DNA of 64,000 nucleotides from Stagnimonas aquatica (lineage in GTDB: Bacteria; Pseudomonadota; Gammaproteobacteria; Nevskiales; Nevskiaceae). The translations under genes were made by a program, and so were the position numbers. The stretch lies in contig NZ_RJVO01000001.1 in the NCBI RefSeq assembly GCF_003730135.1, positions 434,001 to 498,000 on the forward strand, written 5' to 3'. Below, piece by piece: positions 4,867 to 54,947 of this stretch (position 1 is its first letter; every line of letters starts with the position of its first letter). The notes under the pieces are model-generated. The model saw only the letters and a list, made by a program, of their open reading frames with translations, was not told the DNA's origin and searched no databases.

Positions 4867-6309
4867 TCAGGCCTGCACGCCGCCGACGGTCATGCCGTCG
4901 AGCTTGAGCGTCGGCTGGCCGACACCCACCGGCACGCTCTGGCCGTCCTTGCCGCAAACGCCGACGCCCCGGTCCAGCGCCAGGTCGTGGCCGACCATGC
5001 TGACCTTGTTGAGCGAATCCGGGCCGTTGCCGATCAGGGTCGCGCCCTTCACCGGGCGGGTGATCTTGCCGTCCTCGATCAGATAGGCCTCGCTGGCGCT
5101 GAAGGTGAAATTGCCGCTGGTGATGTCGACCTGGCCGCCGCCGAAGTTGACCGCGTAGAGGCCCTTCTTCACCGAGCGGAGGATCTCTTCGGGGTCGTGC
5201 GGGCCGGCGCGCATGTAGGTGTTGGTCATGCGCGGCATCGGCAGGTGCGCGAAGGATTCGCGACGGCCGTTGCCGGTGGGCGCCACGCCCATCAGCCGCG
5301 CGTTCATGCGGTCCTGGATGTAGCCGGTCAGCACGCCGTTTTCGATCAGCGTGGTGCAATGGGTCTGCTCGCCCTCGTCGTCCACCGACAGCGAGCCGCG
5401 ACGGTCGGGCAAGGTGCCGTCATCGACCACGGTCACCAGCGGGCTGACGATCTGCTGTCCCATGCGGCCGGCGAACAGCGAGGTGCCCTTGCGATTGAAG
5501 TCGCCTTCCAGCGTGTGGCCGACCGCCTCGTGCAGCAGCACACCGGGCCAGCCAGGGCCGAGCACTACCGGCATGCTGCCGGCCGGCGCCGGGATGGCGT
5601 CGAGCAGCACCAGGGCCTGGCGCACCGCCTCCTGCGCGTACTGCTCGGGCTCACCGGCGCCGAAGAAGCGGGCGTAGGCACCACGGCCGCCGCCGCCGCT
5701 GGAAGCCTGCTCGCGGCGGCCGTCGCGCTCGGCGATGACCGAGACATTGAGCCGCACCAGCGGCCGCACGTCGGCGCTCTGCAAGCCGTCGGCGCGCTGT
5801 ACGAAGATCACCTCGTGCTGGGCGGCGAGCGAGACCATCACCTGGGTGACCAGCGGGCTGGCGGCGCGCGCGGCGGCGTCGGCGCGGCGCATCAGCTCCA
5901 GCTTCTGCTCGGCGCTCCAGTCGTGGATGGGATCGACGGCGGCGTAGAGCGCGGTCACGGCCGGCCGGGTGATGCGCCCCACCCGCCCCTCGCCGCCGCT
6001 GCGGACGATGCCGCGCGCCGCTTCGGCGGCGTCGGCGAGCGCCGGCAGGGACAGATCGTCGGAATAGGCGAAGCCGGTCTTCTCGCCCGCCACCGTGCGC
6101 AGGCCGGCACCGCGTTCGACATGGTGGCTGCCGCTCTTGACGATGCCGTCTTCCAGAAACCAGCTCTCGGTGACCGCGTGCTGAAAGTAGATGTCGGCAT
6201 CGTCGGCGCCGCCCGGCAGCAGGCGGCCGATCAGGCGCGACAGGCCGGCGTCGTCCACCCCGGCGGGTTCCAGCAGGGTGGCGCGGGCGAGGTCTAGGGC
6301 GTTGGTCAT
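4867..6309 (-). CDS. tldD: metalloprotease TldD
   Basis: TldD forms a heterodimeric zinc metalloprotease with TldE/PmbA that trims unfolded peptides, for example in modified-peptide maturation. The 480-residue product has the normal length. It contains the zinc motif HEAVGHTLEGD near residues 257-267, the HEXXXH of the family, and the C-terminal GGGQVDITSGNF segment. No tldE is present in the window, as is usual for gammaproteobacteria where the two genes are unlinked. It heads the tightly packed set that leads down to coaD. Upstream, the usual neighbours nit and yhdP are present but separated from it by a VOC gene and a repeat. Confidence 0.96.
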   Translation of the reverse strand: MTNALDLARATLLEPAGVDDAGLSRLIGRLLPGGADDADIYFQHAVTESWFLEDGIVKSGSHHVERGAGLRTVAGEKTGFAYSDDLSLPALADAAEAARGIVRSGGEGRVGRITRPAVTALYAAVDPIHDWSAEQKLELMRRADAAARAASPLVTQVMVSLAAQHEVIFVQRADGLQSADVRPLVRLNVSVIAERDGRREQASSGGGGRGAYARFFGAGEPEQYAQEAVRQALVLLDAIPAPAGSMPVVLGPGWPGVLLHEAVGHTLEGDFNRKGTSLFAGRMGQQIVSPLVTVVDDGTLPDRRGSLSVDDEGEQTHCTTLIENGVLTGYIQDRMNARLMGVAPTGNGRRESFAHLPMPRMTNTYMRAGPHDPEEILRSVKKGLYAVNFGGGQVDITSGNFTFSASEAYLIEDGKITRPVKGATLIGNGPDSLNKVSMVGHDLALDRGVGVCGKDGQSVPVGVGQPTLKLDGMTVGGVQA

Positions 6310-6355
6310 GGTGTCTGGAAACTGGGGATGCCGCGATTGTCCCGCAAGAACGCCC

Positions 6356-6724
6356 TCAGCGTACCGCCTTCAAATCGAAGTGCGGGTTCTGGATCAGGTG
6401 CAGGGGATTGCCGAAAGGGTCGAGCACCGAGCAGACGCGGATGCCGCCACCGACCTCGGTGACCGGCTGCCCCGGCGTGGCGCCCAGCGCCAGCAGGCGG
6501 GCGCGCTCGGCATCGATGTCGGCCACACCCCAATAGGGCTGCGGGCCGTTCTCGCCGGGCGCGAGGCCGTCCGGCACCAGGCCCAGCTCGAAGCCGCCGA
6601 TGGCGAAGCCGACGTAGTAGGGCTCGTCGAAGTAGGGCTCCGTCTCGAAGGCCTGGGCGTACCAGGCCTTGCCGGCGGCGAGGTCGGGCGTGGGGACGAT
6701 GGCGGTGCGCAGGCCGAGAATCAT
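6356..6724 (-). CDS. VOC-family (glyoxalase/bleomycin-resistance fold) protein
   Basis: A 122-residue single VOC module with the beta-alpha-beta-beta-beta layout: TAIVPTPDLAAGKAWYAQAF at the N-terminus, YYVGFAIGGFELGLVPDG in the middle and VCSVLDPFGNPLHLIQNP at the C-terminus. Acidic residues usable as metal ligands are present (for example the E in FELGL), but no substrate can be named. It lies between tldD and the nitrilase gene, which are adjacent in most relatives, and directly downstream of the palindromic repeat at 6749-6857, so it may have been added to the block. Confidence 0.8.
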   Translation of the reverse strand: MILGLRTAIVPTPDLAAGKAWYAQAFETEPYFDEPYYVGFAIGGFELGLVPDGLAPGENGPQPYWGVADIDAERARLLALGATPGQPVTEVGGGIRVCSVLDPFGNPLHLIQNPHFDLKAVR

Positions 6725-6748
6725 GAGAGCACTCCTTAGTATTCAGGT

Positions 6749-6857
6749 CTCCTCCCCCCGCTTGCGGGGGGAGGTCGGGAGGGGGGCGTTCCACGGGGGC
6801 GTTAGCGCGCGACAGAAAACGCCCCCACCCTAGCCCTCCCCCGCTACGCGGGGGAGG
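6749..6857. repeat. intergenic palindromic repeat, BIME-like, copy 1
   Basis: About 105 bases with two terminal hairpins, CTCCCCCCGC/GCGGGGGGAG at 6751-6773 and CCCTCCCCCGC/GCGGGGGAGGG at 6835-6857. In between are complementary blocks GGGGGCGTT and AACGCCCCC around a short spacer, so the whole can fold as one long structure. A second element of the same architecture lies after ahcY. There is no open reading frame. It may also stop or protect the nit transcript, but no T run is present. Confidence 0.7.
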
Positions 6858-6868
6858 GGACTACAGAC

Positions 6869-7702
6869 TTACAGACGCCGGTGCGAGAGCGCCGGAAAGC
6901 GCGCGCGCACCGCTTGCAGATGTTCGGGATCGAGTTCCGCCAGCGCCACGCCGGGCGTGTCGTCGAACAGCTCGGCCAGGGTCTCGCCCCAGGGATCGAG
7001 AATCAGCGAATGGCCATAGGTGCCGCGCCCGCCGGGATGGGTGCCGCACTGCCCTGGCGCCAGCAGGTAGGCGAGGTTCTCCACCGCCCGCGCCTTCAGC
7101 AGCGTGTGCCAGTGCACTGCGCCGGTCTTGGCGGTGAACGCGGCCGGCACGCAGAACAGGGTGCAGCCCTCGGACACCAGGGCGCGGAACAGCTCGGGGA
7201 AGCGCAGGTCGTAGCAGATCGACAGCCCCAACCGCCCCAGCGGCGTATCCACCGCCACCGGCGTCACCGCGCCGGGCGCGATGCTGTTGGATTCGCGGTA
7301 CCGCTCGACCAGTGTCGAGCCAGATTCACTGGTGCCGTTGCCGACATCGACATCGAACAGGTGGATCTTGTCGTAGCGCGCCGCGCGCCGGCCATCGGCG
7401 TCATACACGCAGCAGGCGGCGTGGACGCGGCCGTCCGGTGCGCCGATCGGCAGGCTGCCGGCGACGATCCAGAGCTTCAGCCGCGCGGCGGTGGCAGCCA
7501 GCCAGTCCTGGATAGTCCCGGCGCCATCGGCCTCGGCATGCGCCAGCTTGTCGCGCTCCTTCGCGCCCATGAAAGCGAAGTTCTCCGGCAGCGCCGCCAA
7601 CGCCGCGCCAACGCCCGCCGCGCGCTCCAGCAGCGCTTGCGCCTGCGCCAGATTGGCGGCGAGATCGGCGCCGGAATTCATCTGCACCACCGCAGCTTTC
7701 AT
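6869..7702 (-). CDS. carbon-nitrogen hydrolase (Nit/omega-amidase family)
   Basis: A 277-residue cytoplasmic amidase of the nitrilase superfamily. The catalytic triad is visible: Glu in LPENFAF near residue 41, Lys in RYDKIHLFDV near 112 and Cys163 in SICYDLRFPE. Relatives hydrolyse deaminated glutathione or omega-amides; the precise substrate is inferred from family only. The start at 7702 (MKAAVVQMNSG) shares one base with the yhdP stop, so the two are translated together. The nit gene between yhdP and tldD is a conserved gammaproteobacterial arrangement. Confidence 0.92.
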   Translation of the reverse strand: MKAAVVQMNSGADLAANLAQAQALLERAAGVGAALAALPENFAFMGAKERDKLAHAEADGAGTIQDWLAATAARLKLWIVAGSLPIGAPDGRVHAACCVYDADGRRAARYDKIHLFDVDVGNGTSESGSTLVERYRESNSIAPGAVTPVAVDTPLGRLGLSICYDLRFPELFRALVSEGCTLFCVPAAFTAKTGAVHWHTLLKARAVENLAYLLAPGQCGTHPGGRGTYGHSLILDPWGETLAELFDDTPGVALAELDPEHLQAVRARFPALSHRRL

Positions 7703-10700
7703 CAGGGGCCTCCTAGCTTGCCGCCGCTCGCCGGCGGCGTCTCGGGCTTGCGCGGCTCGTCGTTGATCTCGGAGCCGTCGAGCTTGCGGATCTCCGGATT
7801 GTCCCAGCTGCCGGTGAGCCGGTAGTCGATCTGCGTCGCCTCGCCGAGCGGCTTGTCCAGCACCTGGTTGGCGATCAGCGCCAGCAGCGGCATCGCCGGC
7901 CCGGCGGCCAGCGAGGCGCCGCCCAGCAGCAGGGCGCCGAGCGTCACTCCCGACACATCCGGGTAGATGGTGACCTGCTGGTCGTAGTCGTGCGCGCCAA
8001 GGCCGATGCGGCCGCGCACTTCCACCCGCAGCGACGAGCTTCGCACCACCAGATCCTCGGTGTGGGCATTGCCGCCGGCCAGCTCGAACTGACCGTCGAT
8101 GCGGTCGTAGTTGAGGCCCTTGGACAGCACGTCGCGGAAGTTGAGCGTCAGCCGTTTGGGCAGCGCGTAGAAGTTGAGCAGGCCCAGCACCCGCGAGGTG
8201 CCGCCCGGCTCCACCGTGCGCAGCGCGCCGTCGCGGGCTTCCAGGCTGACCTGGCCCTGCGCCTGCGACCACTCCAAGCCGCGCGCCGCCGGTGCCCACA
8301 CGAGCTGGCTGCGGAAGCGCGCCGAGCGCCCGGAGAGGGTCGGCGCGAAGCCCAGGCCGCGCAGGGCGGCGGCAAGATCGGTGCTGGCCAGCTCGAAGTT
8401 GGCGCGGGCGCTGGAAACATTCTGCTGGCGCTTCCACTCGCCCTCGCCGCTGAGGCTGGCGACACCGCCTTCCAACTGGATCTGCTTGAGCCGCTGCCCA
8501 CCGGGCAGACGCTCGCTCTGCAATTGCAGGCGGCCGAAGTTCTCGCCGCCGATGTCGAGGTCGTCGACCACGAAATCCAGGCTGGGTACCCGGTTGGGGT
8601 CGATCACCGAGGCCACCACATCGGCCGGCGTGGGCGGCGTGTCAGCGGTCTTGTCGGCGGCCGGCACCGGTTGCAGGCGCAGGCGCTGGAAGCGCCCGCT
8701 GAGACGGCCCAGGTCGTTGCCACCATTGCGCAGCCAGTCGAGGCTACCGGCGCCGCTGGCGCCGTCGAGCAACACCCGCCAGTTGCCATTGCCGGCGCGA
8801 CTGGCCTTGAGCTGCGCCTCCGGCAGTTCATAGCCGGCGGCCTGCAAGTGGGCAACGCTGATCTCGGCGCCCTGGAACGGCAGCTCGTCGCCGGAGCCGG
8901 CACTCAGCAGACCGATCCAGGCGGCGAGATCGAGCCGGTCGGCGCGGCCGGAGACGAGCATGCCGTCCTGCTCGGGCGCGCTGACCTCGCCGCCACCCAG
9001 GCGCACGCCGATGCCGCGCGCCAGCAGTTCGCCGCGCTCGCGCGCGAAGCGCAGCGCCAGACTCATGCGCGCCGGCAGATCCAGCTTCAGCGCCAGCGGA
9101 ATCCGCTCGTCGCCGCTGAGTTCCAGGCTCAGCGGCAGGGCCTGCTCGGGCAGCTTGGCCAGGGGCACCGGCAGCCGCGAGCCGGCACCCCGCAGCTCGC
9201 TGAGGATGCGGATGCGGCCGGCGCGCGGGCCGCTCAGGGGCAGACGCAACTCGGCCTCGGTACGCCCGTCCAGGCGCTCGCGCACCCAGCGCGGCACGAA
9301 GCGCGCGGCGATGCCGCGCTCGGCATCGAGATCCACCGGCAGCCGCGCCTGCAACTCGTCGTTGCCTTCGGCATTGACGCTGATCTGCGCCTGCACCGGC
9401 GCGCCGTAATAGCTCGCCACCAGGTGCTCGGCGGCGACTCCCCTGGTGCTGAAGCGCAGCCCGCCCTGGATGTCGCGCACCGGCTCTTCCAGGCCGGTGA
9501 TGCGCAGCAGGTTGCCCGGCAGCCGCACCTGCCCTTCCACCACGAGCTTCTGGCCGAGATTCGAGTGCAGTGGAATGTCCAGTTGCACATCGGCCTCGGC
9601 GGGACCCTCGGCGTCGGTGTGCCCGACCAGCCCGGCCAGCCGGGTCGCCAGCGGCGAGCCGCGCAGGAAGCTGTAGTAGGCCGCCGCCTCGCCGCGCGTC
9701 CGGCCGTCGATGCGCAGGCTGCCGGTGCTGAAATCCTCGATGCTGCCGCTGGCGCCCAGCACCTCGACCCCGGAGATCAGGCCACGCTCGGCCTCGAAGC
9801 GCAGACCGTTACCGGCAAATTTCAGCTGCGCCCGCACCCGGTCGAGGCCCGGCCAGTCGGCTTGGTAGTCGAGGCGGGCGTCGGCGACGCTGAGATCCAG
9901 CGACCACTGGCCGGTCGGCCGGGCATGAAACGGAAAGTCGGCGAGCGGGCCGTCGATGCGCAGCACCGCCTCGGGAACCCGCGCGCGCACCAGCGACTGC
10001 TGCAACCAGTCGCGCAGATGCGGCCCCCAGCGCAGCGGCATCAGCGGCTTGAGGCGCGCGGCATCGGCGGCTTTCAGGCGTGCCTCCAGCTTCAGCAAGG
10101 GCGACTCGCCGGGGCGCAGGCGCAGGTCCAGCTCGGCCTCGCCCTCGCTGCCGAGCAAGCCCCAGCTCAGGTCCGGCGCCTGCAGGCGCCAGCCTTCGCT
10201 TTCCTGGCTCCAGCTGAGGCTGGCGCGCAGGCGCTCCAGTGCCAGCGGCGCGGCGAAGGTTTGCGGCAAGCGCAGGCGCGCCTGCTCGCCGTGCAGCTCG
10301 AAACGGCCGCCGCGCTCATCGGCGCTGAGGCGCCCGGACAAACCGCTGACGCCATTGTCCTCGGCGCCCCCAAGGCCGAAGCCGGACAGCACCGCTGCCA
10401 GGGCATAGCGCGGGTTGCCCTCGACCGGCGGCTCGTAGCGGCCGCTCAGTTCGCGGGCATCGCCACGCAGGCTGGCCAGCTGTCGGGCCCGCTCCGGCGC
10501 CAGCCCCGGCACCAGCGACAGCCAGGGTGCGAGGTCGTCGAGGCGCAGGAAGTCGGCACTGCCGTCGATACGCCAGGGACCGCCTTCGCGACGCCAGCCG
10601 AGGCGACCCGTCGCTGCTTGCGGCCAGGCGCCACGGCTACCGATCAGGCGCAGGCCGCTCCATTCCAGGCTGCCGCCGTCGGCCTGCGGCTGGTAGGCCA

Positions 10701-11601
10701 GACGCAGCGCCAGATCCTTCCAGCGCAGCGGTTGCGCGCCGCCCAGTTGTAGCTGCGCGGCCTTCAGCTCCAGGGTGCTGGCGGCGGGCGCACCCTCGGC
10801 CCAGTCGCCGGTGGCACTCAACTCGGCTTTGTCCAGCGTCAGCGGCAGCGACACCGGCAGACGCGCCAGCAGCGAGGCTCCGGGCTGCAGGCCGATCACC
10901 TCGGCATTCCAGCGGCCGCGCCAGTGCTCTGGCTGGTCGAAGGCGCCGGTAAAGCCTGCGCGCAGCCTGAGGCTCTGGGCGATCAGCGCGCCGGCCTCGG
11001 CTTCCAGACGCAACTCGAAGCCCTCGCTGGCCCCGCCGTCGATCCGCAGATCGAGTTGGGACAGCTGCAGCGGCAAGGGCGGTCCGGGCAGACGTGCGTC
11101 ATAGACCTGGGCCTGCACCTTGAGGGCACGCAGGCGGTCGAAGCGGCGCAGTTCGCGCAGCAGCTTGCGCAGGTCGGGCGGCTTGGCGCCGGGCGCGATG
11201 CCACGCAGGCGCAACTGGTTGTCCGCACCGAGGTCCAGCTCCAGCCGCACGCCGGAGAGTTCGATCCGCGCCGGCACCAGCCGGCCGTGCAGCAGATCGG
11301 CGGCGGCGAAGCCCAGGCGCAGGCGCTCCACCACCAGCACCGTGCTCCGGCCGTCGTCGCCGACCAGCTCGACGCCGCTCAACTGGAGCTGTGGCCACAG
11401 CCAGCGCCAGGCCAGCTCCATGCCGCCGATCCGCACCGGTCGGCCGACCGCTGTGGAGACCCGGGCCGCCAGATCGTCGCGGTAGCCGGGTGCAGCGAGC
11501 ACCGCCAGCTGGAACAGCCCGGACAGCGTCGCCGCCAGCACCACCAGGGCCGAGACCCAGGTGATGCCGCGGGTCCACCAGCGGCGCTTGCGGCGCTCCA
11601 C
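7702..11601 (-). CDS. yhdP: YhdP-family AsmA-like phospholipid transport protein
   Basis: A very large protein, 1299 residues. The N-terminus is basic (MERRKRRWWTRG) and is followed by one membrane segment (VSALVVLAATLSGLFQLAVL) that would anchor it in the inner membrane. The rest is periplasmic beta-rich repeat sequence of the DUF3971/AsmA type, which in E. coli YhdP spans the periplasm and moves phospholipid to the outer membrane. Near the C-terminus are the conserved GLLNFYALPKRLTLNFRD-type and YPDVSGVTLGALLLGG segments. It sits between rng and nit as in many gammaproteobacteria. The C-terminal tail is Pro/Gly rich. Confidence 0.93.
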   Translation of the reverse strand: MERRKRRWWTRGITWVSALVVLAATLSGLFQLAVLAAPGYRDDLAARVSTAVGRPVRIGGMELAWRWLWPQLQLSGVELVGDDGRSTVLVVERLRLGFAAADLLHGRLVPARIELSGVRLELDLGADNQLRLRGIAPGAKPPDLRKLLRELRRFDRLRALKVQAQVYDARLPGPPLPLQLSQLDLRIDGGASEGFELRLEAEAGALIAQSLRLRAGFTGAFDQPEHWRGRWNAEVIGLQPGASLLARLPVSLPLTLDKAELSATGDWAEGAPAASTLELKAAQLQLGGAQPLRWKDLALRLAYQPQADGGSLEWSGLRLIGSRGAWPQAATGRLGWRREGGPWRIDGSADFLRLDDLAPWLSLVPGLAPERARQLASLRGDARELSGRYEPPVEGNPRYALAAVLSGFGLGGAEDNGVSGLSGRLSADERGGRFELHGEQARLRLPQTFAAPLALERLRASLSWSQESEGWRLQAPDLSWGLLGSEGEAELDLRLRPGESPLLKLEARLKAADAARLKPLMPLRWGPHLRDWLQQSLVRARVPEAVLRIDGPLADFPFHARPTGQWSLDLSVADARLDYQADWPGLDRVRAQLKFAGNGLRFEAERGLISGVEVLGASGSIEDFSTGSLRIDGRTRGEAAAYYSFLRGSPLATRLAGLVGHTDAEGPAEADVQLDIPLHSNLGQKLVVEGQVRLPGNLLRITGLEEPVRDIQGGLRFSTRGVAAEHLVASYYGAPVQAQISVNAEGNDELQARLPVDLDAERGIAARFVPRWVRERLDGRTEAELRLPLSGPRAGRIRILSELRGAGSRLPVPLAKLPEQALPLSLELSGDERIPLALKLDLPARMSLALRFARERGELLARGIGVRLGGGEVSAPEQDGMLVSGRADRLDLAAWIGLLSAGSGDELPFQGAEISVAHLQAAGYELPEAQLKASRAGNGNWRVLLDGASGAGSLDWLRNGGNDLGRLSGRFQRLRLQPVPAADKTADTPPTPADVVASVIDPNRVPSLDFVVDDLDIGGENFGRLQLQSERLPGGQRLKQIQLEGGVASLSGEGEWKRQQNVSSARANFELASTDLAAALRGLGFAPTLSGRSARFRSQLVWAPAARGLEWSQAQGQVSLEARDGALRTVEPGGTSRVLGLLNFYALPKRLTLNFRDVLSKGLNYDRIDGQFELAGGNAHTEDLVVRSSSLRVEVRGRIGLGAHDYDQQVTIYPDVSGVTLGALLLGGASLAAGPAMPLLALIANQVLDKPLGEATQIDYRLTGSWDNPEIRKLDGSEINDEPRKPETPPASGGKLGGP

Positions 11602-11624
11602 CTAGCGGCCTGTGATGGCGCCCG

Positions 11625-13085
11625 TCATACCGGCACCACGTCGAAGTTTTCCTGCGGGTAATAGGCCTCGGATTGCAGCCGGATCGGGCGCTTGAACTGC
11701 GCCTCCAGTTCGGCCAGGCCACCGGATTGCTCCTGCAGCTTCTCGACCACCGGCGGGCTGGCCAGCACCAGGAAGCTCTTGGAGTCGTACTGACGGGCGG
11801 CGCGCTTCACCTCGCGGGCGATGTCGTGGCAGACCGTCTCGACGGTCTTGATATGGCCGCGACCGCCGCAACTCGGACAGGTCTCGGTGAGGATGTGGCC
11901 CAGCGACTCGCGGGTGCGCTTGCGGGTCATCTCGATCAGACCCAGCGGCGAGAACGGATGCACATGAGTGCGCGCCTTGTCGCGGCCCAGCTCGCGCTCC
12001 AGCGCACGCAGCACCTGAGCGCGGTGGTCGGCATTGGGCATGTCGATGAAGTCGAGAATGATGATGCCGCCCAGGTTGCGCAGCCGCAGTTGCCGGGCGA
12101 TCGCCTGGGTCGCCTCGAGATTGGTCTTGAGCACCGTCTCTTCGAGATTGCGGTGGCCGGTGAAGGCGCCGGTGTTGACGTCGATGGTGGTCATCGCCTC
12201 GGTCTGGTCGATCACCAGATGGCCGCCGGACTTCAGCTCCACCTTGCGCTCCAGGGCGCGCTGGATCTCGTCCTCGACACCGTAGAGATCGAAGATCGGC
12301 GCCTGGCCGTCGTAGCACTCGATGCGGGTCTCGGCCTCGGGCACGAACACCTTGGCAAACTCCTGCACGCGCTGGCATTCCGCCGGGCTGTCGATGCGGA
12401 TGCGCTCGACCTCGGCGTCCATCAGGTCGCGCAGGATGCGCATCGACAGCGGCAGGTCGCCGTGCACCAGGGTGCCCGGCCTGCTCTCGGCGGCCAGCCG
12501 CTCGATGTCGGCCCACAGCCGCACCAGGAAGCGCATGTCGTGGGCGATCGCCTCCTCGGTCGCGCTCTCGGCGGCGGTGCGGGCGATCACCCCCCAGTAG
12601 GGCGCGAGCTGCGGCGCCAGCCGCTCCATCACTTCCTTCAGGCGCTCGCGCTCGGCGGCGTCCTCGATCTTGGCGGAGACGCCGACGTGCTTCTCGAACG
12701 GCAGCATCACCAGATAGCGGCCGGGCAGCGAGATCAGGGTGGTGAGCCGCGCGCCCTTGCTACCGAGCGGATCCTTGACGATCTGCACCAGCACATGTTG
12801 GCCCTCATGCAGCAGGCTTTCCACCGGCGGCGGCGGCGCGTCGGCGGGCATGCCCTCCGGCCGCAGCATGTCGTTGACGTGGAGGAAAGCGGTGCGCTCC
12901 AGGCCGATGTCGACGAAGGCCGCCTGCATGCCCGGCAGCACCCGCTTCACCGCGCCCTTGTAGACATTGCCGACCAGGCCGTAGCGGTGCGCGCGCTGGA
13001 TGTGGATTTCCTGCGCGGAGCCGCCCACCACCAGGGCGACGCGGGTCTCCTGGGGCCCGATGTTGACGAGTATTTCGGTGGTCAT
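11625..13085 (-). CDS. rng: ribonuclease G
   Basis: RNase G is a single-strand endonuclease for 5' maturation of 16S rRNA and decay of some mRNAs. The 486-residue length matches RNase G, without the long C-terminal scaffold of RNase E. Visible features are the S1 domain start (HRYGLVGNVYKGAVKRVLPG), the catalytic aspartates in TIDVNTG near residue 301 and ILDFIDM near 344, and the Zn-link CPSCGGRGH near 401. The yhdP start lies 23 bases after its stop and maf 71 bases upstream, so maf-rng-yhdP-nit probably form one transcript. Confidence 0.96.
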   Translation of the reverse strand: MTTEILVNIGPQETRVALVVGGSAQEIHIQRAHRYGLVGNVYKGAVKRVLPGMQAAFVDIGLERTAFLHVNDMLRPEGMPADAPPPPVESLLHEGQHVLVQIVKDPLGSKGARLTTLISLPGRYLVMLPFEKHVGVSAKIEDAAERERLKEVMERLAPQLAPYWGVIARTAAESATEEAIAHDMRFLVRLWADIERLAAESRPGTLVHGDLPLSMRILRDLMDAEVERIRIDSPAECQRVQEFAKVFVPEAETRIECYDGQAPIFDLYGVEDEIQRALERKVELKSGGHLVIDQTEAMTTIDVNTGAFTGHRNLEETVLKTNLEATQAIARQLRLRNLGGIIILDFIDMPNADHRAQVLRALERELGRDKARTHVHPFSPLGLIEMTRKRTRESLGHILTETCPSCGGRGHIKTVETVCHDIAREVKRAARQYDSKSFLVLASPPVVEKLQEQSGGLAELEAQFKRPIRLQSEAYYPQENFDVVPV

Positions 13086-13156
13086 GAGGACCGATGGTAG
13101 ATAGTCAGGGCTGAATAGTCGCCGAGAACCGGCACGGCGGTCACCGCCAGAACGGC

Positions 13157-13744
13157 TCAGACCGAGGCGGCCGGCCCCGGATGGATGCCGAATTGCGCCA
13201 ACAGTTCAGCGGTTTCCGCCAACGGCAGGCCGACCACCCCGGAATAGCTGCCGCGCAGGGCGCGCACATAGCGCCCGCCCAGCCCCTGGATTGCATAGGC
13301 GCCGGCCTTGTCGGCCGGCTCGCCGCTGGCCCAGTAGGCCAGCGCCTGCGCGCGATCCAGGCTCACGAACTCCACCTCGGTGGTGGTGGCGATCACCGCC
13401 TCGCGACTCCCGTCTACCAGCGCCACCGCGCTGATCACCTGGTGGCTGCGGTCGGCCAGCGCCAGCAGCATCGCGCAGGCATCCTCGGCATCGCGCGGCT
13501 TGCCGAGAATGCGGCCGTCAATGCTGACATCGGTGTCGGCGCCCAGCGCCGGCCGGCCACTGCGGGCCTGGGCGGCGCGGGCCTTGTCCAGCGCCAGCCG
13601 GCGGGCGTAGGCCAGCGGCGCCTCGCCGGGGCCGGGGACTTCCGGCAGATCGACCGGCAGGCAATCGAAGACATAGCCCTGCTCGCGCAGCAGTTGCACG
13701 CGGCGTGGCGAGCGGGAGGCCAGGACGAAGGTGACGGTGGTCAT
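13157..13744 (-). CDS. maf: Maf-family nucleoside triphosphate pyrophosphatase
   Basis: Maf proteins hydrolyse non-canonical or canonical nucleotides (dTTP/UTP for the YhdE type) to monophosphates. The 195-residue protein starts MTTVTFVLASRSPRRVQLL with the family SxSPRR motif, and has GADTDVSIDGRILGKP near residues 70-85 and QGLGGRYVRALRGSYSGVVGLPL near the end (in two blocks). The ATG at 13744 is chosen because the motif lies directly behind it; a start 13 codons upstream is possible but adds unrelated residues. Its place just before rng is conserved. Confidence 0.92.
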   Translation of the reverse strand: MTTVTFVLASRSPRRVQLLREQGYVFDCLPVDLPEVPGPGEAPLAYARRLALDKARAAQARSGRPALGADTDVSIDGRILGKPRDAEDACAMLLALADRSHQVISAVALVDGSREAVIATTTEVEFVSLDRAQALAYWASGEPADKAGAYAIQGLGGRYVRALRGSYSGVVGLPLAETAELLAQFGIHPGPAASV

Positions 13745-13795
13745 GACGAAGGCGCCGGCGCGCGGCGGAGCAGTGGCCTGCACCCGCCGGCCTGC

Positions 13796-14449
13796 TCAGT
13801 CTCCCGGCTTGATCTTGCCGGCACGCAGCAGCTTGAAGCGCTCGATGTCGGCACTGAACTGCGCCTCGATCTGGCTGCGCTCCTCGCCCAGCCGCTGCAC
13901 CAGCTGCAGGTTGTCGACCAGCGAGGCCTCGAAGGTCTCAATCTGCTTGGCCAGCTCCGGCGGTGGCGGCTTGTCGCCGGCGCGCGAGCGCAGATCTTCC
14001 AGCACCTTCTCGTTGTCGGCGACCGCTTTTCGGGCCAGCACGGTGCGGCCGTCGATGGTGGCGACGCGATCCTCGCGCGCCGCCTGCAATTCGGCGACGC
14101 TGGTGTAGGACTGCAACAAGGTGCGATCAACGACCGCGCGGCGGGCGGCCTCCTCGCGGGCCAGCGCCTGGGCGCGCTGCTGGGCGAGTTCCTCGGCGGT
14201 GGGCTCGCGCGGCACGGTGCTGGTCACCAGCCCCTGACGGTTCAGCGTCTCGCGCCCCTGCTTGGCATCCTGGGGTGGCAGCTTGTCGCCGAAATGCACC
14301 TGGCCCTTGTCGTCGACCCAGCGGTAGAGCTTCTTGTCATCGGCCGCGCCGGCCTGGGCAGCCAGCGCCAGCCCCAGCAGCAGCGCCGGCCACTGCCGAC
14401 ACCGTGCGATGCGCCCTTGCCTGTCGTCTTTGTGGCTACGCCCGGACAT
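13796..14449 (-). CDS. DUF4124-domain exported protein
   Basis: A 217-residue protein with an N-terminal signal (WPALLLGLALAAQAGAA), then the DUF4124 module KLYRWVDDKGQVHFGDKLPP around residues 40-59, followed by a long charged helical region of likely coiled coil (EELAQQRAQALAREEAARR, QLVQRLGEERSQIEAQF). DUF4124 proteins are common in gammaproteobacteria, are periplasmic, and have no assigned activity. It lies 30 bases after pyrE and 50 bases before maf in the same direction. Confidence 0.8.
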   Translation of the reverse strand: MSGRSHKDDRQGRIARCRQWPALLLGLALAAQAGAADDKKLYRWVDDKGQVHFGDKLPPQDAKQGRETLNRQGLVTSTVPREPTAEELAQQRAQALAREEAARRAVVDRTLLQSYTSVAELQAAREDRVATIDGRTVLARKAVADNEKVLEDLRSRAGDKPPPPELAKQIETFEASLVDNLQLVQRLGEERSQIEAQFSADIERFKLLRAGKIKPGD

Positions 14450-33381: not shown

Positions 33382-34797
33382 ATGTCTCGCAATTCCCTGC
33401 TCAAATCCAGCCTCGCCGCCGCAGCGGTGGGCTTTGGCGTGACGGCCGCCGTGCTCTCGCTGTCGACCACCGCGCCGCAGCCGGCGCATGCCGACCTGCC
33501 GGCGCCGATGATCGCCGCCCCCAGCACCGGCGGCCTGCCCTCGCTGGCGCCGATGCTGCGCGAAGTGATGCCGGCGGTGGTCAACATCTCGGTCACCAGC
33601 AAGGTCGAGGTGCAGAACCCGTTCGGCCCGATGATGGATGACCCCAACTTCCGGCGCTTCTTCGGCATCCCCGACCAGCCGCAGCAGCGGCAGGCGCAGA
33701 GCCTGGGCTCGGGCACCATCGTCGATGCCGCCAAGGGCTACATCCTCACCAACAACCATGTGGTCGCCGACGCCGACGAGATCAAGGTACGGCTGTCCGA
33801 CGACCGTGAGTTCGCCGCCAAGCTGATCGGCAAGGACGCCGATACCGACCTCGCGGTCATCCAGATCAAGGCCGAGCGCCTCAAGGCCCTGAGCCTGGGC
33901 AATTCCGACGGCCTGCAGGTCGGCGATTTCGTGGTCGCCATCGGTTCACCCTTCGGCCTGCGCCAGACCGCGACCACCGGCATCGTCTCCGGCCTCGGCC
34001 GCGCCACCGGCGACGGCATCCAGGACTTCATCCAGACCGACGCCTCGATCAACCCCGGCAACTCCGGCGGCGCGCTGATCAACCTGCGCGGCGAACTGGT
34101 CGGCGTGCCCAGCCAGATCCTTTCCCGCAGTGGCGGCAACATCGGCATCGGCTTCGCCATTCCGGTCAATCTCGCCAAGAGCGTGATGAACCAGTTGATC
34201 GAGACCGGCACCGTCACCCGTGGCCGCATCGGCGTGCAGGGCCAGGACCTGACTCCGGAGCTGGCCAAGTCCTTCGGCCTCAGCAATGCCCGTGGCGTGG
34301 TGGTGTCGCGGGTGGTGCCGGACGGCCCGGCCGCCCGCGCCGGCCTGAAGGTCGAGGACATCATCCTCAAGGCCAACGGCCGCGAGATCACCGACTTCAA
34401 CCAGTTGCGCACGGTCATCGGCCTGCTGCGGGTGGGCGAAAAGGTGCAGCTCGACATCCTCCGCGAAGGCAAGCCGCGCACCGTCACCGTCGCGGTCGGC
34501 AAGGACAGCGAGCAGGCCGCCCCGGGCGCCGCCGTCAACCCCAGGCTGCAGGGCGCGACCTTCGCCCCCGCCGACGAGAGCAATGCCGAGGGCGACATCC
34601 GTGGCGTGGTGGTGGCCAAGATCGACCCGCGTTCGCCGGCCGCCCGCACCGGCCTGCGTCAGGGCGACGTCATCATCGGCGTCAACCGTCGCCCGGTGAA
34701 CAGCATGGACGACTTCGCCAAGCTCACCGCCGGCAAGGACGAGCTGCTGCTGCATCTGCGTCGCGGCGAAAGCGCGCTGTTCCTGATCGTCCAGTAA
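33382..34797 (+). CDS. DegQ/MucD-type periplasmic serine endoprotease
   Basis: A HtrA-family protease and chaperone for misfolded envelope proteins. The 471-residue protein has a signal peptide (AAAAVGFGVTAAVLSLS, cleavage after AHA), a trypsin-like domain with His126 in TNNHVVAD, Asp156 in DTDLAVIQI and Ser228 in NPGNSGGAL, and two PDZ domains (about residues 275-365 and 390-471). The PNFRRFFG segment is the LA loop of the DegP/DegQ/MucD group. The length and motif order fit MucD of pseudomonads as well as DegQ. It has its own terminator. Confidence 0.95.
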   Translation: MSRNSLLKSSLAAAAVGFGVTAAVLSLSTTAPQPAHADLPAPMIAAPSTGGLPSLAPMLREVMPAVVNISVTSKVEVQNPFGPMMDDPNFRRFFGIPDQPQQRQAQSLGSGTIVDAAKGYILTNNHVVADADEIKVRLSDDREFAAKLIGKDADTDLAVIQIKAERLKALSLGNSDGLQVGDFVVAIGSPFGLRQTATTGIVSGLGRATGDGIQDFIQTDASINPGNSGGALINLRGELVGVPSQILSRSGGNIGIGFAIPVNLAKSVMNQLIETGTVTRGRIGVQGQDLTPELAKSFGLSNARGVVVSRVVPDGPAARAGLKVEDIILKANGREITDFNQLRTVIGLLRVGEKVQLDILREGKPRTVTVAVGKDSEQAAPGAAVNPRLQGATFAPADESNAEGDIRGVVVAKIDPRSPAARTGLRQGDVIIGVNRRPVNSMDDFAKLTAGKDELLLHLRRGESALFLIVQ

Positions 34798-42585: not shown

Positions 42586-42645
42586 AGACGGAGCCTCGCG
42601 GTTGGTCGCGTGGCAAGCTTTGCACCTGAATACCCGGACACTGTC

Positions 42646-43344
42646 ATGAGCGCGCTCTCCGCCTACCCCATCACCCGCAAGTGGCCGGCGCTGCACCCGG
42701 ACCGCATCCAGCTCTACTCGCTGCCCACGCCCAACGGCGTGAAGGTCTCGATCCTGCTGGAGGAAACCGGCCTGCCCTACGAGGCGCACAAGGTCGATTT
42801 CGCCAGCAACGACCAGCTCTCGCCGGAATTCCTCTCGCTCAATCCCAACAACAAGATCCCGGCGATCCTCGACCCGCAGGGGCCGGGCGGCAGGCCACTG
42901 GCCTTGTTCGAGTCCGGCGCGATCCTGCTCTACCTCGCCGACAAGGCCGGCACCTTCCTCCCCGCCGACCCGGCCGGCCGCTACGAGGCGATCCAGTGGC
43001 TGATGTTCCAGATGGGCGGCGTCGGCCCGATGTTCGGGCAGCTCGGCTTCTTCCATAAATTCGCCGGCAAGGACTACGAGGACAAGCGCCCGCGCGACCG
43101 CTATGTCGCCGAGTCGCAGCGGCTGCTGGCGGTTCTGGAGCGGCAGCTCGACGGCCGCGACTGGCTGCTGGGGAAGGACTACAGCATCGCCGACATCGCC
43201 ACCTTCCCCTGGGTGCGCAACCTGATCGGCTTCTACGGCGCCGGCGAGTTGGTGCGGATCCAGAACTATCCGAATGTGTTGCGGGTGCTGGACGCTTTTC
43301 TGGCACGGCCGGCAGTGCAGCGCGGGCTCAGCATCCCCGGCTGA
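42646..43344 (+). CDS. glutathione S-transferase family protein (Nu/YghU-like)
   Basis: A 232-residue protein. The N-terminal thioredoxin-like domain has LYSLPTPNGVKVSILLEE near residues 22-39 (TPNG at the active site as in YghU/YfcG), NPNNKIPAILDP near 66-77 with the cis-Pro, and LFESGAILLYLADK near 88-101. The C-terminal helical domain holds YSIADIATFPWV near 181-192. YghU-type enzymes act as disulfide-bond reductases with bound glutathione. The start is set at 42646; an earlier ATG adds 12 unrelated residues. It borders the tRNA-Ser islet. Confidence 0.92.
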   Translation: MSALSAYPITRKWPALHPDRIQLYSLPTPNGVKVSILLEETGLPYEAHKVDFASNDQLSPEFLSLNPNNKIPAILDPQGPGGRPLALFESGAILLYLADKAGTFLPADPAGRYEAIQWLMFQMGGVGPMFGQLGFFHKFAGKDYEDKRPRDRYVAESQRLLAVLERQLDGRDWLLGKDYSIADIATFPWVRNLIGFYGAGELVRIQNYPNVLRVLDAFLARPAVQRGLSIPG

Positions 43345-43360
43345 GCGCGGTCGGTGCGGC

Positions 43361-43401
43361 CAAAGCAAAACGCCCCCTTGCAGAGGTCGTTGGATTGCTT
43401 G
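43361..43401. repeat. degenerate copy of the tRNA-Ser terminator region (left edge of islet)
   Basis: AAAGCAAAACGCCCCCTTGC at 43362-43381 matches AAAGCAAAACGCCCTCTTGC at 44342-44361 in 19 of 20 bases. The following AGAGGTCGTTGGATTGCTTGG resembles GAGGGCGTTGTGTTTGACTTGG less well. The right copy is the working terminator of tRNA-Ser; the left copy has lost its second stem arm. Confidence 0.75.
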
Positions 43402-43467
43402 GAAATGACGCTGTCTGCGCACAGCACCTTCGCGTTGCTCCCACCGCCGTATCTCTGGAGACCTCAC

Positions 43468-44298
43468 TTGACCATCACTCACGCCCAATGGGTTCTAGCA
43501 CGGCCCCAAGTTAAGCAAGTCGTCCTGGAGCAGGCACTGGGGTACTACAGACTTCGAGTCACTGTTGAGCTCGAGGTACGCGGCTACCCGGATCAACGCC
43601 GATTCGTTGTCAAAGACATGCAGCTTCGTGTCGAGGCCCGCAATCACGAGGCAATCGGTTTGCTCGGAACAGCATTTCCTGAGCACCCATTCATCATCGA
43701 AACCATGATGCATAGTTCACCGGCGAACTACTGCTTCGAGCTTTCGCTGACTGCTCGTCAGATCGGTCTTCTGGAGGAACTTAGAGCTGGAGGAGATCTC
43801 CATCTTTTCGTGTCCCTGCACGCCCTGACTTCAGAGAGTGATGTGACTTACTCCTGCAGCGACTCATTAATTTTCACAGTCCCTCAAAGCAACTGGATCA
43901 AGCAGCTCAACGACTCCAAGTTCACAGACGTACTGCTGGTCGAGGTTCCAATCGGCAGCCTGACACCAGCTCATTTGGTCACATTCTTGCAAAAGGCCCG
44001 CAACCAGATCGCCACAGCCGACTATCGCGGGGCGATAGCTACATGCCGGGCTGCCATGGAATTGCTTGCTGAGGGTGAGCAGAAGGAGGACCAGCAAGCC
44101 GTCTCTGGCTTTAAGGAGAACCCGCGAGGAATGTCGTCAGAGAATCGGCTTCGCCTTATTCGGCATGCCGCGAGGCACTACACACACTTGGCGAATCATG
44201 CAGATAGCGAATCTCTGAAGGCCAGCTACACCCTAAGGGATGCAGTGTTGTTGCTGACGTTAGCGACCGCCTTTTCGGCTCACCAACTTGATGCTTAA
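43468..44298 (+). CDS. unknown protein of a tRNA-Ser islet, beta domain plus helical domain
   Basis: A TTG start at 43468 is preferred because GGAG lies seven bases upstream; ATGs at 43405 and 43354 are in frame, but the region between them translates the terminator copy. The 276-residue product has an N-terminal beta-rich half (YYRLRVTVELEVRGY, CFELSLTARQIGLLEELRAG, DLHLFVSLHAL) and, after NWIKQLNDSKFTDVLLVEVP, a helical half (FLQKARNQIATADYRGAIAT, RLRLIRHAARHYTHLANHA). The helical half could be HEPN-like, but no catalytic motif is certain. Codon use is visibly less GC-rich than in the neighbours. No family is recognised. Horizontal acquisition is inferred from composition and flanking repeats. 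Confidence 0.7.
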   Translation: MTITHAQWVLARPQVKQVVLEQALGYYRLRVTVELEVRGYPDQRRFVVKDMQLRVEARNHEAIGLLGTAFPEHPFIIETMMHSSPANYCFELSLTARQIGLLEELRAGGDLHLFVSLHALTSESDVTYSCSDSLIFTVPQSNWIKQLNDSKFTDVLLVEVPIGSLTPAHLVTFLQKARNQIATADYRGAIATCRAAMELLAEGEQKEDQQAVSGFKENPRGMSSENRLRLIRHAARHYTHLANHADSESLKASYTLRDAVLLLTLATAFSAHQLDA

Positions 44299-44342
44299 CC
44301 GGCAGACTGGAAAGTCGAACTACGCGGAGTTAGGGCCGGGTA

Positions 44343-44370
44343 AAGCAAAACGCCCTCTTGCGAGGGCGTT
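44343..44370 (-). terminator. Rho-independent terminator of tRNA-Ser
   Basis: AACGCCCTC and GAGGGCGTT arms with a TTGC loop; on the minus strand TTTTGC follows. It lies 11 bases after the tRNA 3' end. Confidence 0.9.
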
Positions 44371-44380
44371 GTGTTTGACT

Positions 44381-44473
44381 TGGCGGACGAGGAGGGATTC
44401 GAACCCCCGTGCAGGGTCGCCCCCACCATCTGATTTCGAGTCAGCGCCGTTATGACCGCTTCGGTACCCGTCC
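44381..44473 (-). tRNA. tRNA-Ser(CGA)
   Basis: On the minus strand the molecule begins GGACGGGTACCGAAGCGG, has anticodon CGA in the loop CTCGAAA, a long variable arm (TGGTGGGGGCGACCCTGCA region) typical of serine tRNA, the T loop GGTTCGAATCC, an acceptor 3' strand CTCGTCC pairing with the 5' end, discriminator G and an encoded CCA. It reads serine codon UCG. It borders the islet gene at 43468. Confidence 0.97.
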
Positions 44474-44603
44474 AGTGGCGCGCATTTTAGCCGAAGCCGT
44501 CGGCGAGGGCGACCACATCGGCGTTTGCCATGGCTGTGATACGGTGGTGCGCAGAGGAAATTCACGCCGCCGAACGCCTAGACCAGAGCTGCGAACCCCG
44601 CCC

Positions 44604-46178
44604 ATGCCCGCCCCCGTCACCCGCTCTCGACTGCGCAGCCGCCTGCCTGCGGCGCTGTACGGCTGCGTGGCGCTGGCGACGCTGACCACCTGCTCGGAAC
44701 TGCGGCCGCCGCTGCTGGAACAGATCCGTGAGGACGGCGTGCTGAAGATCGCCTCCACCTACAGTCGCACCAGCTGCTACAGCGGCCCGACCGGGCTGAT
44801 CGGTTACGAATGCGAGCTGGCCCAGGGCTTGGCCAAAAGCCTGGGGGTGAGCGCCGAGATCAGCTTCAGCAACAGCCCCGCCGACGCCCTGCAGGCGGTG
44901 CTCGACGGCCGCGCGCACCTGGCGGCGGCCGGGCTCACGGTCAATTCCGAACGCCGCGACCGGGCGCGCTTCTCCTCGCCCATTGACCAAGTGGTGCCGC
45001 AACTGGTCTACCGCATCGGCAGCCCGCGCCCGAAATCGCTGGGCGAGCTGGACGGCCGGCTGCTGGTCTCCGAGGGCGGCAACCACGTCGCCCGGCTGCG
45101 GGCGCTGGCGCGCAGCTTTCCGCAGCTGAAGTGGGAGGCGACCACCGCCTACGACTCCGAAGATCTCTTGTTCCAGGTCGCCAGCGGCGAGCTGGACTAC
45201 ACCATCGCCAGCTCGGCGCTGGTGGCGATCAACCAGCGCTACTACCCGCGCCTGCGGGTGGCTTTCGATGTCGGCAATGCCGAGGACATCGCCTTCGCCT
45301 TCGCGCCCGGGCGTGACACCTCGCTCTACGACGCCGCACAGGACTATCTCGCACGCCTGCCGCCGCGCAACCTGGCGCGGCTGCATGACCGCTACTACGG
45401 CCATGTCGAAGAGGTGGACTACTTCAGCGCGGTGCAGATCGCCAACCACATGCGCAGCCGCCTGCCGCGCCTGCGCGGCTATTTCGAGCAGTCGGCCAAT
45501 CGCCACGGCCTGGACTGGCGCCTGCTCGCGGCCATCGGTTACCAGGAATCGCACTGGGACAGCAGCGCCCAGAGCCGCACCGGGGTGCGCGGGGTGATGA
45601 TGCTGACCAACGACACCGCCACCCGCTACAAGGTCGCCAATCGCGAAGACCCGGAGCAGAGCATCGAGGGCGGCGCGCGGGTGCTGGCCGACATCCTGCG
45701 CGGCATCCCCGAGGAGGTGCCGGAGCCCGACCGCAGCTGGATGGCTCTGGCCGCCTACAACCAGGGCCTGGGGCACCTGCTCGACGCCCGTGAGCTGACC
45801 GCCCAGCGCGGCGGCGATTCCGCCCACTGGCTGGACGTGCGCGACGTGTTCCCGCTGCTGTCGCGGCCGCGCTGGTACCAGCAGACCAAGTACGGCTACA
45901 CCCGGGGCCGCGAGGCGGTGGACTTCGTCACCAACGTCCGCGCCTACTACGACATCATCAGCTGGCTCACTTCCGGCGCGCCGGTGCTGCCGCCACCGCC
46001 GCTGCGGCTGGAGCAGAAGCTGCGAGTGGCCGACAGCAGCCTGCCCGCCAACGATCCGCTGCTGCCGGAGGCGCTGGACGGCTCGCCGCTCGACACACCC
46101 GCCGATCCCGCTGCGGAGGCACTCGCGCCGGGGCCGGCCGAGTCTGCTGGCAGCCCCGAAGCCCGTCCGGCCAGCTGA
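44604..46178 (+). CDS. mltF: membrane-bound lytic murein transglycosylase MltF
   Basis: MltF cleaves peptidoglycan glycan strands with 1,6-anhydro product formation at the outer membrane. The 524-residue protein has a signal region (LYGCVALATLTTC, a possible lipobox), an N-terminal periplasmic substrate-binding-like domain (residues 35-270, with ADALQAVLDGRAHLAAAGLT) and a C-terminal SLT domain with catalytic Glu315 in GYQESHWDS, TGVRGVMMLTNDTA near 325-338 and AAYNQGLGHLLDAR near 391-404. The tail after residue 460 is Pro/Ala-rich and longer than in E. coli. Confidence 0.94.
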   Translation: MPAPVTRSRLRSRLPAALYGCVALATLTTCSELRPPLLEQIREDGVLKIASTYSRTSCYSGPTGLIGYECELAQGLAKSLGVSAEISFSNSPADALQAVLDGRAHLAAAGLTVNSERRDRARFSSPIDQVVPQLVYRIGSPRPKSLGELDGRLLVSEGGNHVARLRALARSFPQLKWEATTAYDSEDLLFQVASGELDYTIASSALVAINQRYYPRLRVAFDVGNAEDIAFAFAPGRDTSLYDAAQDYLARLPPRNLARLHDRYYGHVEEVDYFSAVQIANHMRSRLPRLRGYFEQSANRHGLDWRLLAAIGYQESHWDSSAQSRTGVRGVMMLTNDTATRYKVANREDPEQSIEGGARVLADILRGIPEEVPEPDRSWMALAAYNQGLGHLLDARELTAQRGGDSAHWLDVRDVFPLLSRPRWYQQTKYGYTRGREAVDFVTNVRAYYDIISWLTSGAPVLPPPPLRLEQKLRVADSSLPANDPLLPEALDGSPLDTPADPAAEALAPGPAESAGSPEARPAS

Positions 46179-53279: not shown

Positions 53280-54947
53280 ATGGCTGACACGAGGCCACCG
53301 CAGGCAATCTGGGTACGACACCCCTACTGGACCTATACCGTCACTGCCGCAGGACTCGCCGGCCTGCTGTCCTGGGGCCTGGTCAGCCTCGCCGGGCCAG
53401 CCTGGGCCAGCCCCTCGGTGGCGGCACCTGCGGCACAAGCAGCCGCTCCGCCGGCGCCAATCGCCCCCGCGACGACAAGCCCGTCGAGCACATCACCGGC
53501 GCCGCCTGCCCCAGCGACGGTGCCTTCATCGCTCGCGCCCGCACCGCCCAGCCCGAGCCCCTCCACCGGCCTCGGCGCCGAAGCGGAGCGGCGCCTGGCC
53601 GAACTCGAACAGCGGCAAGAGTCCGTCGTCAACAGCGTGATCGAGGCTCGCAGCAAGACCATCGACTGGTGGCTGGCCTACCTGGCCGTGTTCACGGCCG
53701 TGATCGGACTGGTCGGCCTGCTGATTCCCTTCATCATCGGCCGCAAGGAGCGAGAGCGGCTCCAGGTCGACCTCGACGAGGTCCGACGGATGAAGGGCGA
53801 GATCGACTCCCACCTGCAGGGCTCGCGGAAGAACCTTGACGAGAGCAATGCCTTGCTCGCCGCCCAGCGGCCCGAATCCAAGGACAGCACTTCGAGCCCC
53901 AAAAGCGCAGCAGCCGTGGACAAGGCCGTCGCCGAGGTCAAGGCGGCGGAAGCGGCCTCGCCGACCGACCGCCTCCGCGCCGAGGCACTCGCCAGCAAGG
54001 CAGAGCCCGAAAAAGCCTATGCGCTCTGGCACGCCTTGTTGAGCCTGAGCCCCGGAGATGCGCAGGCCGCTTTTTACTGCGGCTACTGGGCGCAGTCGAT
54101 CAGCGAGCAAGACGGCCGCGCGGATGCCTCCTGGTGGCGACAGCGGGGCATCGCGCACTACCAGCGGGCGGTGGAACTCGACGGGCGCAGTCACTGGGCG
54201 CTGAACAACTGGGGCAACGCCCTCACGGCCGAAGCCCGGGCCCTGGCGCAAGCCGGGGACCTGCCGACCGCGCGCAGCCTCTGGCAGCAGGCCGGCCAGC
54301 GCTACGCCGACGCCCTGCGCATCAAGCCCGACAAGCACGAGGCCGCCTACAACTGGGGCAGCGCCCTCGACGACGAAGCCCTGGCCCTGGCGCAGGTCAA
54401 GGACCTGCCGACCGCGCGCAGCCTCTGGCAGCAGGCCGGCCAGCGCTACGCCGACGCCCTGCGCATCAAGCCCGACAAGCACGAGGCCGCCTACAACTGG
54501 GGCAACGCTCTCGCGGCCGAAGCCCTGGCCCTGGCGCAGGTCAAGGACCTGCCGACCGCGCGCAGCCTCTGGCAGCAGGCCGGCCAGCGCTACGCCGACG
54601 CCCTGCGCATCAAACCGGACATGCACGAGGTCGCCAGCAACTGGGCCAGCACGCTGCTGCACGAAGCTGAGGCCATCGGAGATTCTGCGGAGGCTCGTGG
54701 CCTTTGCGAGCGTGCACGGGACTTGATGCTGCCCTTCGCGGAGCGGAAACCCTCAGTGGCCGCCTACAACCTCGCCTGCGCCTACGCCCGGTTGCAGGAC
54801 TTCGAGGCCAGCCTCACCTGGCTGCGCCGCAGCCGCGATGCGGGCGGTCTACCCGACCGCGAGCATCTGGAGACCGATCCGGATCTGGCCGAGCTGCGGC
54901 TAACACCCGGCTTCAAGGCCTTCCTGGGAGAGACCTTCGGCGGATAG
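53280..54947 (+). CDS. membrane-anchored TPR-type protein with near-identical tandem repeats
   Basis: A 555-residue protein. Residues 20-44 are a first membrane segment (or uncleaved signal), then a Pro/Ala/Ser linker to 97, a coiled-coil stretch, a second membrane segment (YLAVFTAVIGLVGLLIPFII near 136-155) and a charged helix. The C-terminal half holds helical repeats of TPR type: three 48-residue units (from residue 310) that each start NWG and share DLPTARSLWQQAGQRYADAL, then weaker repeats to the end. The closing DPDLAELRLTPGFKAFL resembles TPR-end motifs. Role unknown; perhaps a scaffold. Confidence 0.8.
   Translation: MADTRPPQAIWVRHPYWTYTVTAAGLAGLLSWGLVSLAGPAWASPSVAAPAAQAAAPPAPIAPATTSPSSTSPAPPAPATVPSSLAPAPPSPSPSTGLGAEAERRLAELEQRQESVVNSVIEARSKTIDWWLAYLAVFTAVIGLVGLLIPFIIGRKERERLQVDLDEVRRMKGEIDSHLQGSRKNLDESNALLAAQRPESKDSTSSPKSAAAVDKAVAEVKAAEAASPTDRLRAEALASKAEPEKAYALWHALLSLSPGDAQAAFYCGYWAQSISEQDGRADASWWRQRGIAHYQRAVELDGRSHWALNNWGNALTAEARALAQAGDLPTARSLWQQAGQRYADALRIKPDKHEAAYNWGSALDDEALALAQVKDLPTARSLWQQAGQRYADALRIKPDKHEAAYNWGNALAAEALALAQVKDLPTARSLWQQAGQRYADALRIKPDMHEVASNWASTLLHEAEAIGDSAEARGLCERARDLMLPFAERKPSVAAYNLACAYARLQDFEASLTWLRRSRDAGGLPDREHLETDPDLAELRLTPGFKAFLGETFGG
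54207..54638 (+). repeat. three tandem 144-bp repeats inside the TPR gene
   Basis: Units at 54207-54350, 54351-54494 and 54495-54638 encode 48 residues each. The middle part (CTGCCGACCGCGCGCAGCCT onward) is identical at DNA level over roughly 90 bases in all three, with differences at the ends. Such identity means recent duplication or gene conversion. Confidence 0.9.

Follow-up and report, generated by a model that had tools for sequence, protein, structure and literature searches.

A one-gene islet beside tRNA-Ser(CGA)

Between a GST-family gene and tRNA-Ser(CGA), the window (the whole 64-kb stretch of DNA that was analysed) carries an islet of 980 bp with a single gene, at 43362..44341. 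The left host neighbour is the GST-family gene (42610..43344, plus strand; Pfam GST_N/GST_C), which has DNA matches in the genomes G001 and G004. The tRNA-Ser(CGA) (44381..44473, minus strand) was called by ARAGORN and is the sole Rfam match at the gathering threshold (RF00005, over 44384-44473); it is convergent with the GST gene. The right host neighbour is a transglycosylase SLT / SBP_bac_3 gene (44562..46178, plus strand; Pfam), whose DNA matches adjoin tRNA-Ser in G001-G004. The islet gene itself is an open reading frame of 276 aa at 43468..44298 on the plus strand, beginning with TTG. By eye, GGAG stands 7 bases upstream of this TTG at 43468, and the homologues of the protein begin near the matching residue. 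An in-frame GTG at 43354 offers an alternative start, which would overlap the left repeat described below. Promoter-like sites were not detected between 43300 and 44500 (zero found, 0.3 expected).

The islet as a whole has 54.8% GC. The sequence-only reading of this DNA had pointed to one gene of visibly lower GC between two terminator copies, and had proposed its GC and codon bias as a check. The gene is indeed far from its neighbours in both respects. Its GC is 54.0% against 69.3 ± 2.7% in 41 other ORFs of the window, its GC3 is 0.605 against 0.884 ± 0.038, and its codon index is 0.288 against 0.665 ± 0.076, the lowest value among the 41 being 0.450. The comparison ORFs were picked mechanically, by the criteria of no overlap, a length of 150 aa or more and a GC pattern as in the coding frames of high-GC DNA. 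The islet gene is foreign by GC, GC3 and codon use.

A direct repeat borders the islet. Twenty bases in the outer half of the tRNA-Ser(CGA) terminator are duplicated, with the left core AAAGCAAAACGCCCCCTTGC at 43362-43381 on the GST side and the right core AAAGCAAAACGCCCTCTTGC at 44342-44361 on the tRNA side, and the two are identical at 19 of 20 bases at a spacing of 980 bp. This bears out the earlier claim of a tRNA-Ser terminator present twice with 19 of 20 identical bases in its outer part, apart from coordinates that were off by one base. When the whole genome (G000) was searched with the repeat pattern at up to 3 mismatches, two sites only were returned, both with 0 mismatches, and the reversed control pattern gave 1 match in the same search. 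Other pairs of at least 19/20 identity at a spacing of 100-1500 bp within the 64-kb window comprise a tandem array and three pairs (34327-34328, 61390). The array, with starts at 54205-54453, yields 175 20-mer pairs at 144-bp spacing and another 61 at 288 bp, all of at least 19/20 identity.

Past the 20-base core, weaker similarity continues as far as the tRNA's CCA end (43382-43402 versus 44362-44383). Among 20,000 random window segments 11 gave an equal alignment, as did 21 among 20,000 shuffles; since the similarity beyond the core is significant up to CCA, the repeat is about 42 bp long with a degenerate inner half. The left copy of the tRNA-Ser 3′ flank spans 43362..43402, its inner half being degenerate to 43402, and the intact right copy runs from the terminator through the CCA end at 44342..44383. 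The core lies within the terminator, outside the tRNA body, and CCA is the only part of the tRNA included; tRNA-targeted elements typically duplicate more of the tRNA. A terminator-like hairpin is located in the right copy at 44370-44349 on the minus strand, and it is strong on the tRNA strand (-18.0 kcal/mol, z -5.0 versus shuffles). The hairpin of the left copy is weaker relative to shuffles, with -16.6 and z -1.6 on the tRNA strand (equalled or beaten by 10 of 200 shuffles) and -11.2 and z +0.3 on the other strand (equalled or beaten by 116 of 200).

The site is empty in G001, which is the closest relative found and belongs to the same genus. There the GST gene, a single repeat copy and tRNA-Ser stand on one contig with no insert in between, so that the empty site with one terminator copy that had been predicted for a relative does exist. 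The right copy of the window together with the tRNA is identical to G001 at 132 of 132 bases, and the intact copy at 44342..44383 is thus the same as the one that G001 has. To the left of the left copy, the flank resembles the G001 spacer, with 256 of 20,000 random segments equally good. A duplication of the host spacer on the right side was considered and rejected, since the flank left of the right copy was matched by 14,347 of 20,000 random segments. As the left outer flank is host-like and the flank left of the right copy is not, the inserted DNA begins within the left copy and ends at the right copy. In the left copy, the inner half is either decayed old host sequence or sequence that arrived with the element, and the two genomes fit either. 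None of the four other genomes of the genus (87-95% complete) has a homologue of the islet gene at E 0.001; the case named beforehand as refuting, that all relatives carry the same gene, did not occur. The genome comparison used one genome per species.

Changing cargo at the tRNA 3′ side

Next to tRNA-Ser(CGA), on its 3′ side, is a hotspot whose cargo changes across species. In G004, for instance, the GST gene leads into a terminator copy that has 3 mismatches, and about 2.5 kb at 54-56% GC come next, versus 69% beside them. G004 also has 1 match to the reversed control, and because the terminator copy there is near chance by sequence alone, it is its position after GST that carries the argument. 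The low-GC DNA of G004 beside tRNA-Ser(CGA) holds an FRG gene and a GmrSD_N/DUF262 gene, the latter being matched by the PADLOC models NsnA and PD-T4-2_A. The G004 contigs C31 and C73 adjoin, with 14 end bases in common; an FRG-type frame with WFRGQ was seen by eye towards the end of C31, and the rest of the domain is on C73 (profile positions 62-88). Similarly, a DUF5677 gene of 52% GC adjoins tRNA-Ser in G002, where no GST match was found within the 7 kb compared. In G003 the contig ends about 350 bases past the tRNA. By eye, the sequence after the tRNA differs among G002, G003 and G004. In a further genome (G373, locus L032), a partial second tRNA-Ser 3′ end, TTTGGCGGAGGGGGTGGG, was noticed by eye shortly downstream of tRNA-Ser(CGA), as if it were the trace of a former element integration there.

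A search of 15 genomes, in which contig ends limit the fragmented ones, gave no tyrosine-integrase match near the tRNA-Ser(CGA) site. The nearest such match on the same contig as this tRNA is about 57 kb off, in G375. With no tyrosine-integrase match near the site and one gene without a family match, the sequence-only reading of a small integrated element devoid of an integrase is supported.

The islet is a small integrase-less insert at a tRNA hotspot and resembles a cis-mobilizable element (CIME); tRNA-side inserts of this kind are known. As described in PMC5704250, CIMEs have lost their integration and transfer genes and have kept attL and attR. The islet is like them in its att-like direct repeats around foreign cargo at the tRNA 3′ side, with an empty site in G001, and in that its one gene comes without an integration or transfer gene (no Pfam, PHROG or NCBIfam match at threshold). 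It differs from them in carrying one gene only and in having its repeat core in the terminator, and a related full element was not found in this comparison. Among the Dehalococcoides ssrA islands, those described in PMC3146451 as lacking integration modules also have a 20-bp direct repeat at the 3′ side of an RNA gene and cargo without an integrase at a variable spot. However, the repeat of these islands is the ssrA 3′ end, and sister islands with a serine recombinase are described in the same account (PMC3146451), whereas at the tRNA-Ser(CGA) spot no element with a tyrosine integrase was found. The spot also resembles the core defence hotspots of Pseudomonas aeruginosa, for which PMC10250203 describes fixed core flanks with tRNA or tmRNA and changing cargo, often with no mobile gene. 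Those hotspots are given there as essentially always occupied across many isolates, whereas the present comparison covers five genomes of the genus, one of them with an empty site. The islet is a minimal tRNA-hotspot insert whose site is empty in a sister species, and is small enough to study the entry of integrase-less single genes.

The cargo and its protein family

At their thresholds, none of the four libraries searched (Pfam, NCBIfam, PHROGs, PADLOC) recognises the islet protein, although this alone does not prove the family to be undescribed. Its best match among PDB sequences is at E 0.17. One of the 368 other genomes of the class, G238 (locus L029), has a homologue. A four-row profile matched five of 398 genomes of the phylum, namely the window's own, G714 (locus L041), G386 and two weak partial matches; the last two, G424 and G710 at about 20 bits, were not counted as family members. 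Within the order of G714, the homologue is present in G714 alone, of 295 genomes. Plasmid records contain homologues in Salinibacter ruber and Streptomyces. A Streptomyces member was traced to 14 plasmid records including its own (13 of Streptomyces and 1 of Kitasatospora); the plasmid search with the L041 homologue gave none, and that with the Salinibacter homologue gave itself only. No homologue of the islet protein was found in phages, none of the window protein or the L041 homologue in viral_contigs, and none of the window protein in genome_contigs, where the L029 homologue matches its own record only. The protein family of the islet gene is rare and mobile and has no library match.

AlphaFold models were made from 4 sequences each, with a mean pLDDT of 63.6 for the window protein and 72.6 for the L029 homologue, and both agree in a beta-rich half followed by a helical half. 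From these models the islet protein is predicted to be a beta-sandwich joined, less surely, to a C-terminal HEPN-like helical domain. The top structural match of the window model in the PDB (pdb_via) is the HEPN protein AF_0298 (2hsb), with rmsd 3.4 over 96 residues within 163-276 and a Z of 9.7, which is below the level of about 13 advised by the tool for helical bundles. The model of the L029 homologue has no HEPN protein among its best 50 matches, all 50 of which cover the sandwich. Foldseek gave no match against the PDB at E 0.001, and the three matches of the L029 model in BFVD at E ≤0.001 have TM-scores of ≤0.34 and are uninformative. Of seven family members, one gave a weak sequence hint in the same direction, to DUF4145 at E 0.14, and one to HEPN at 0.79, neither above the cut-off.

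A likeness to HEPN / DUF4145-type helical domains would lie in the alignment of the C-terminal half with 2hsb. The islet protein differs from such domains in having no Pfam match above cut-off and in the placing of Rx4-6H, the HEPN catalytic motif. R194 and H244 are invariant in all 12 aligned members, yet Rx4-6H at the invariant H244 occurs in 2 of the 12, and the window protein is not one of them. A looser scan finds Rx4-6H at differing C-terminal places in 7 of the 12. As only these two members have an arginine at HEPN spacing before H244, and the window protein lacks it, the data do not support an RNase role.

The genomic context of some relatives points in the direction of restriction. 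The homologue of G238 lies between HsdM and HsdS, 105 bases before HsdS; next downstream come genes for an AbiP2-like reverse transcriptase and an M78 peptidase. The type I restriction locus there (L029, 2245-9828) reads HsdM, DUF4258 gene, family gene, HsdS, AbiP2-like reverse transcriptase and M78 peptidase. In G714 the homologue follows HsdS at a distance of 66 bases, and the locus also has HsdR and HsdM. The homologue on the Salinibacter plasmid pSR61 has a tyrosine recombinase gene on one side and an Abi-alpha gene on the other, and HsdR follows about 3 kb further on. That of G386 was found by eye to be near HipA-like and AlbA-like genes. None of the seven Streptomyces plasmid regions viewed has restriction genes; one copy on these plasmids adjoins a tyrosine recombinase, and one is near a DEAD/DEAH helicase gene. 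PADLOC gave no match for the window protein and none for three homologues; this and the Streptomyces regions speak against a defence role.

Two of the three relatives in the same phylum adjoin HsdS in type I restriction loci. Together with the genes matched by defence models at the same tRNA spot in a sister species, this makes defence cargo most likely. By association, anti-phage defence or a restriction-accessory role would be the likeliest function of the islet gene. The gene may tentatively be placed in an undescribed defence or restriction-accessory family that combines an Ig-like sandwich with a non-canonical HEPN-like domain and travels as a single-gene mobile unit, within type I loci, off them on Streptomyces plasmids, and here as an integrase-less cassette aimed at a tRNA terminator; this fuller picture is possible but rather doubtful. 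A family that lies beyond library thresholds yet stands beside HsdS in two restriction loci is a reasonable candidate for a defence screen.

Routes of entry

The borders of the islet look like the product of site-specific recombination at a tRNA 3′ side. Foreign DNA would have recombined with the terminator region just beyond tRNA-Ser(CGA). On the GST side this would have produced a degenerate terminator copy with a nearly unchanged outer half, while the terminator next to the tRNA stayed intact. A larger element may have lost its integrase part, or the integrase may have been supplied in trans. Since the islet has one gene and no recognisable recombinase, it is likened to a cis-mobilizable remnant. 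The best explanation of the whole, which we hold to be reasonably probable, is a horizontally acquired, non-autonomous 980-bp hotspot insert with likely defence cargo. The insertion relative to G001, the repeat, the foreign codon use, the lack of a tyrosine integrase nearby and the differing cargo are its observed part. Site-specific recombination, integrase loss, the direction of the event and the defence role are what we infer from them.

The main rival to site-specific entry is homologous recombination at the flanks. With the 20-bp core in the terminator and not in the tRNA body, homologous or illegitimate recombination is possible. The gene could have entered by homologous or homology-assisted recombination, through transformation or transduction, at the conserved flanks or the terminator, without ever having had an integrase. 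That no tyrosine-integrase match lies near the site in the 15 genomes searched agrees with such an entry. In the survey of 80 species in PMC5635113, 45% of the hotspots are given as encoding an integrase and 27% as having neither integrases nor transposases, and more recombination is reported in the core genes that flank hotspots. Two Pseudomonas defence hotspots are likewise described as having no detectable mobile gene in 29% and 47% of cases (PMC10250203). Nevertheless, homologous entry has no need of a specific direct border repeat of 20-42 bp, which is the usual mark of site-specific integration, and the differing sequence past the tRNA in G002-G004 is as expected for integration at a tRNA 3′ end. 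We therefore regard homologous entry as a possible but not a probable route. It is also conceivable that the islet is ancestral and that G001 lost it by recombination between the repeat copies, a deletion that would give the single copy found there. This is improbable, as no homologue is present in the four other genomes of the genus, the codon use is foreign and the relatives are scattered in distant taxa.

Two further origins are far less credible than site-specific entry. A transposon remnant with a long target-site duplication would account for a direct repeat on both sides. No transposase is present, however, and the only inverted repeats reported for the islet are the terminator hairpin and one internal pair, none of them terminal; moreover, target-site duplications are not usually 20 bp long with a degenerate extension. 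Such a remnant is very improbable. Least probable is an integron gene cassette which the integron-like integrase of this genome would have inserted at a secondary site. The genome does have a tyrosine recombinase beside two attC-like sites and ORFs of 51-54% GC (L070), but a strict scan, which a degenerate attC could escape, finds no attC-like pair in the islet, and a 20-bp duplication is not expected from cassette insertion. The same scan found 2 sites in the integron-like region, which is an unlikely source of the islet, given that the islet has no such pair. In L070 (G000:C1:754000-772000) the tyrosine recombinase is at 7539-8528 and the attC-like sites are at 4843-4921 and 5989-6066. A 100-aa ORF is present there twice, at 5692-5994 and 6867-7169, and the ORFs have 51-54% GC.

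To return to site-specific entry, an integrase acting in trans could have been sought in the element at tRNA-Ser(GGA) of the same genome. The repeat of this element, CCCGCCCTGTCCGCCA, is the tRNA 3′ end; by eye it shares CCA only with the islet repeat, so that this integrase is an unlikely source. The element itself (L073, G000:C4:170000-184000) occupies 5998-13956 and is of low GC (mostly 36-53%). Its integrase adjoins tRNA-Ser(GGA), the 16-bp tRNA 3′ end is repeated about 7.9 kb away, and inspection by eye showed a relaxase-like ORF within. The whole resembles an integrative mobilizable element.
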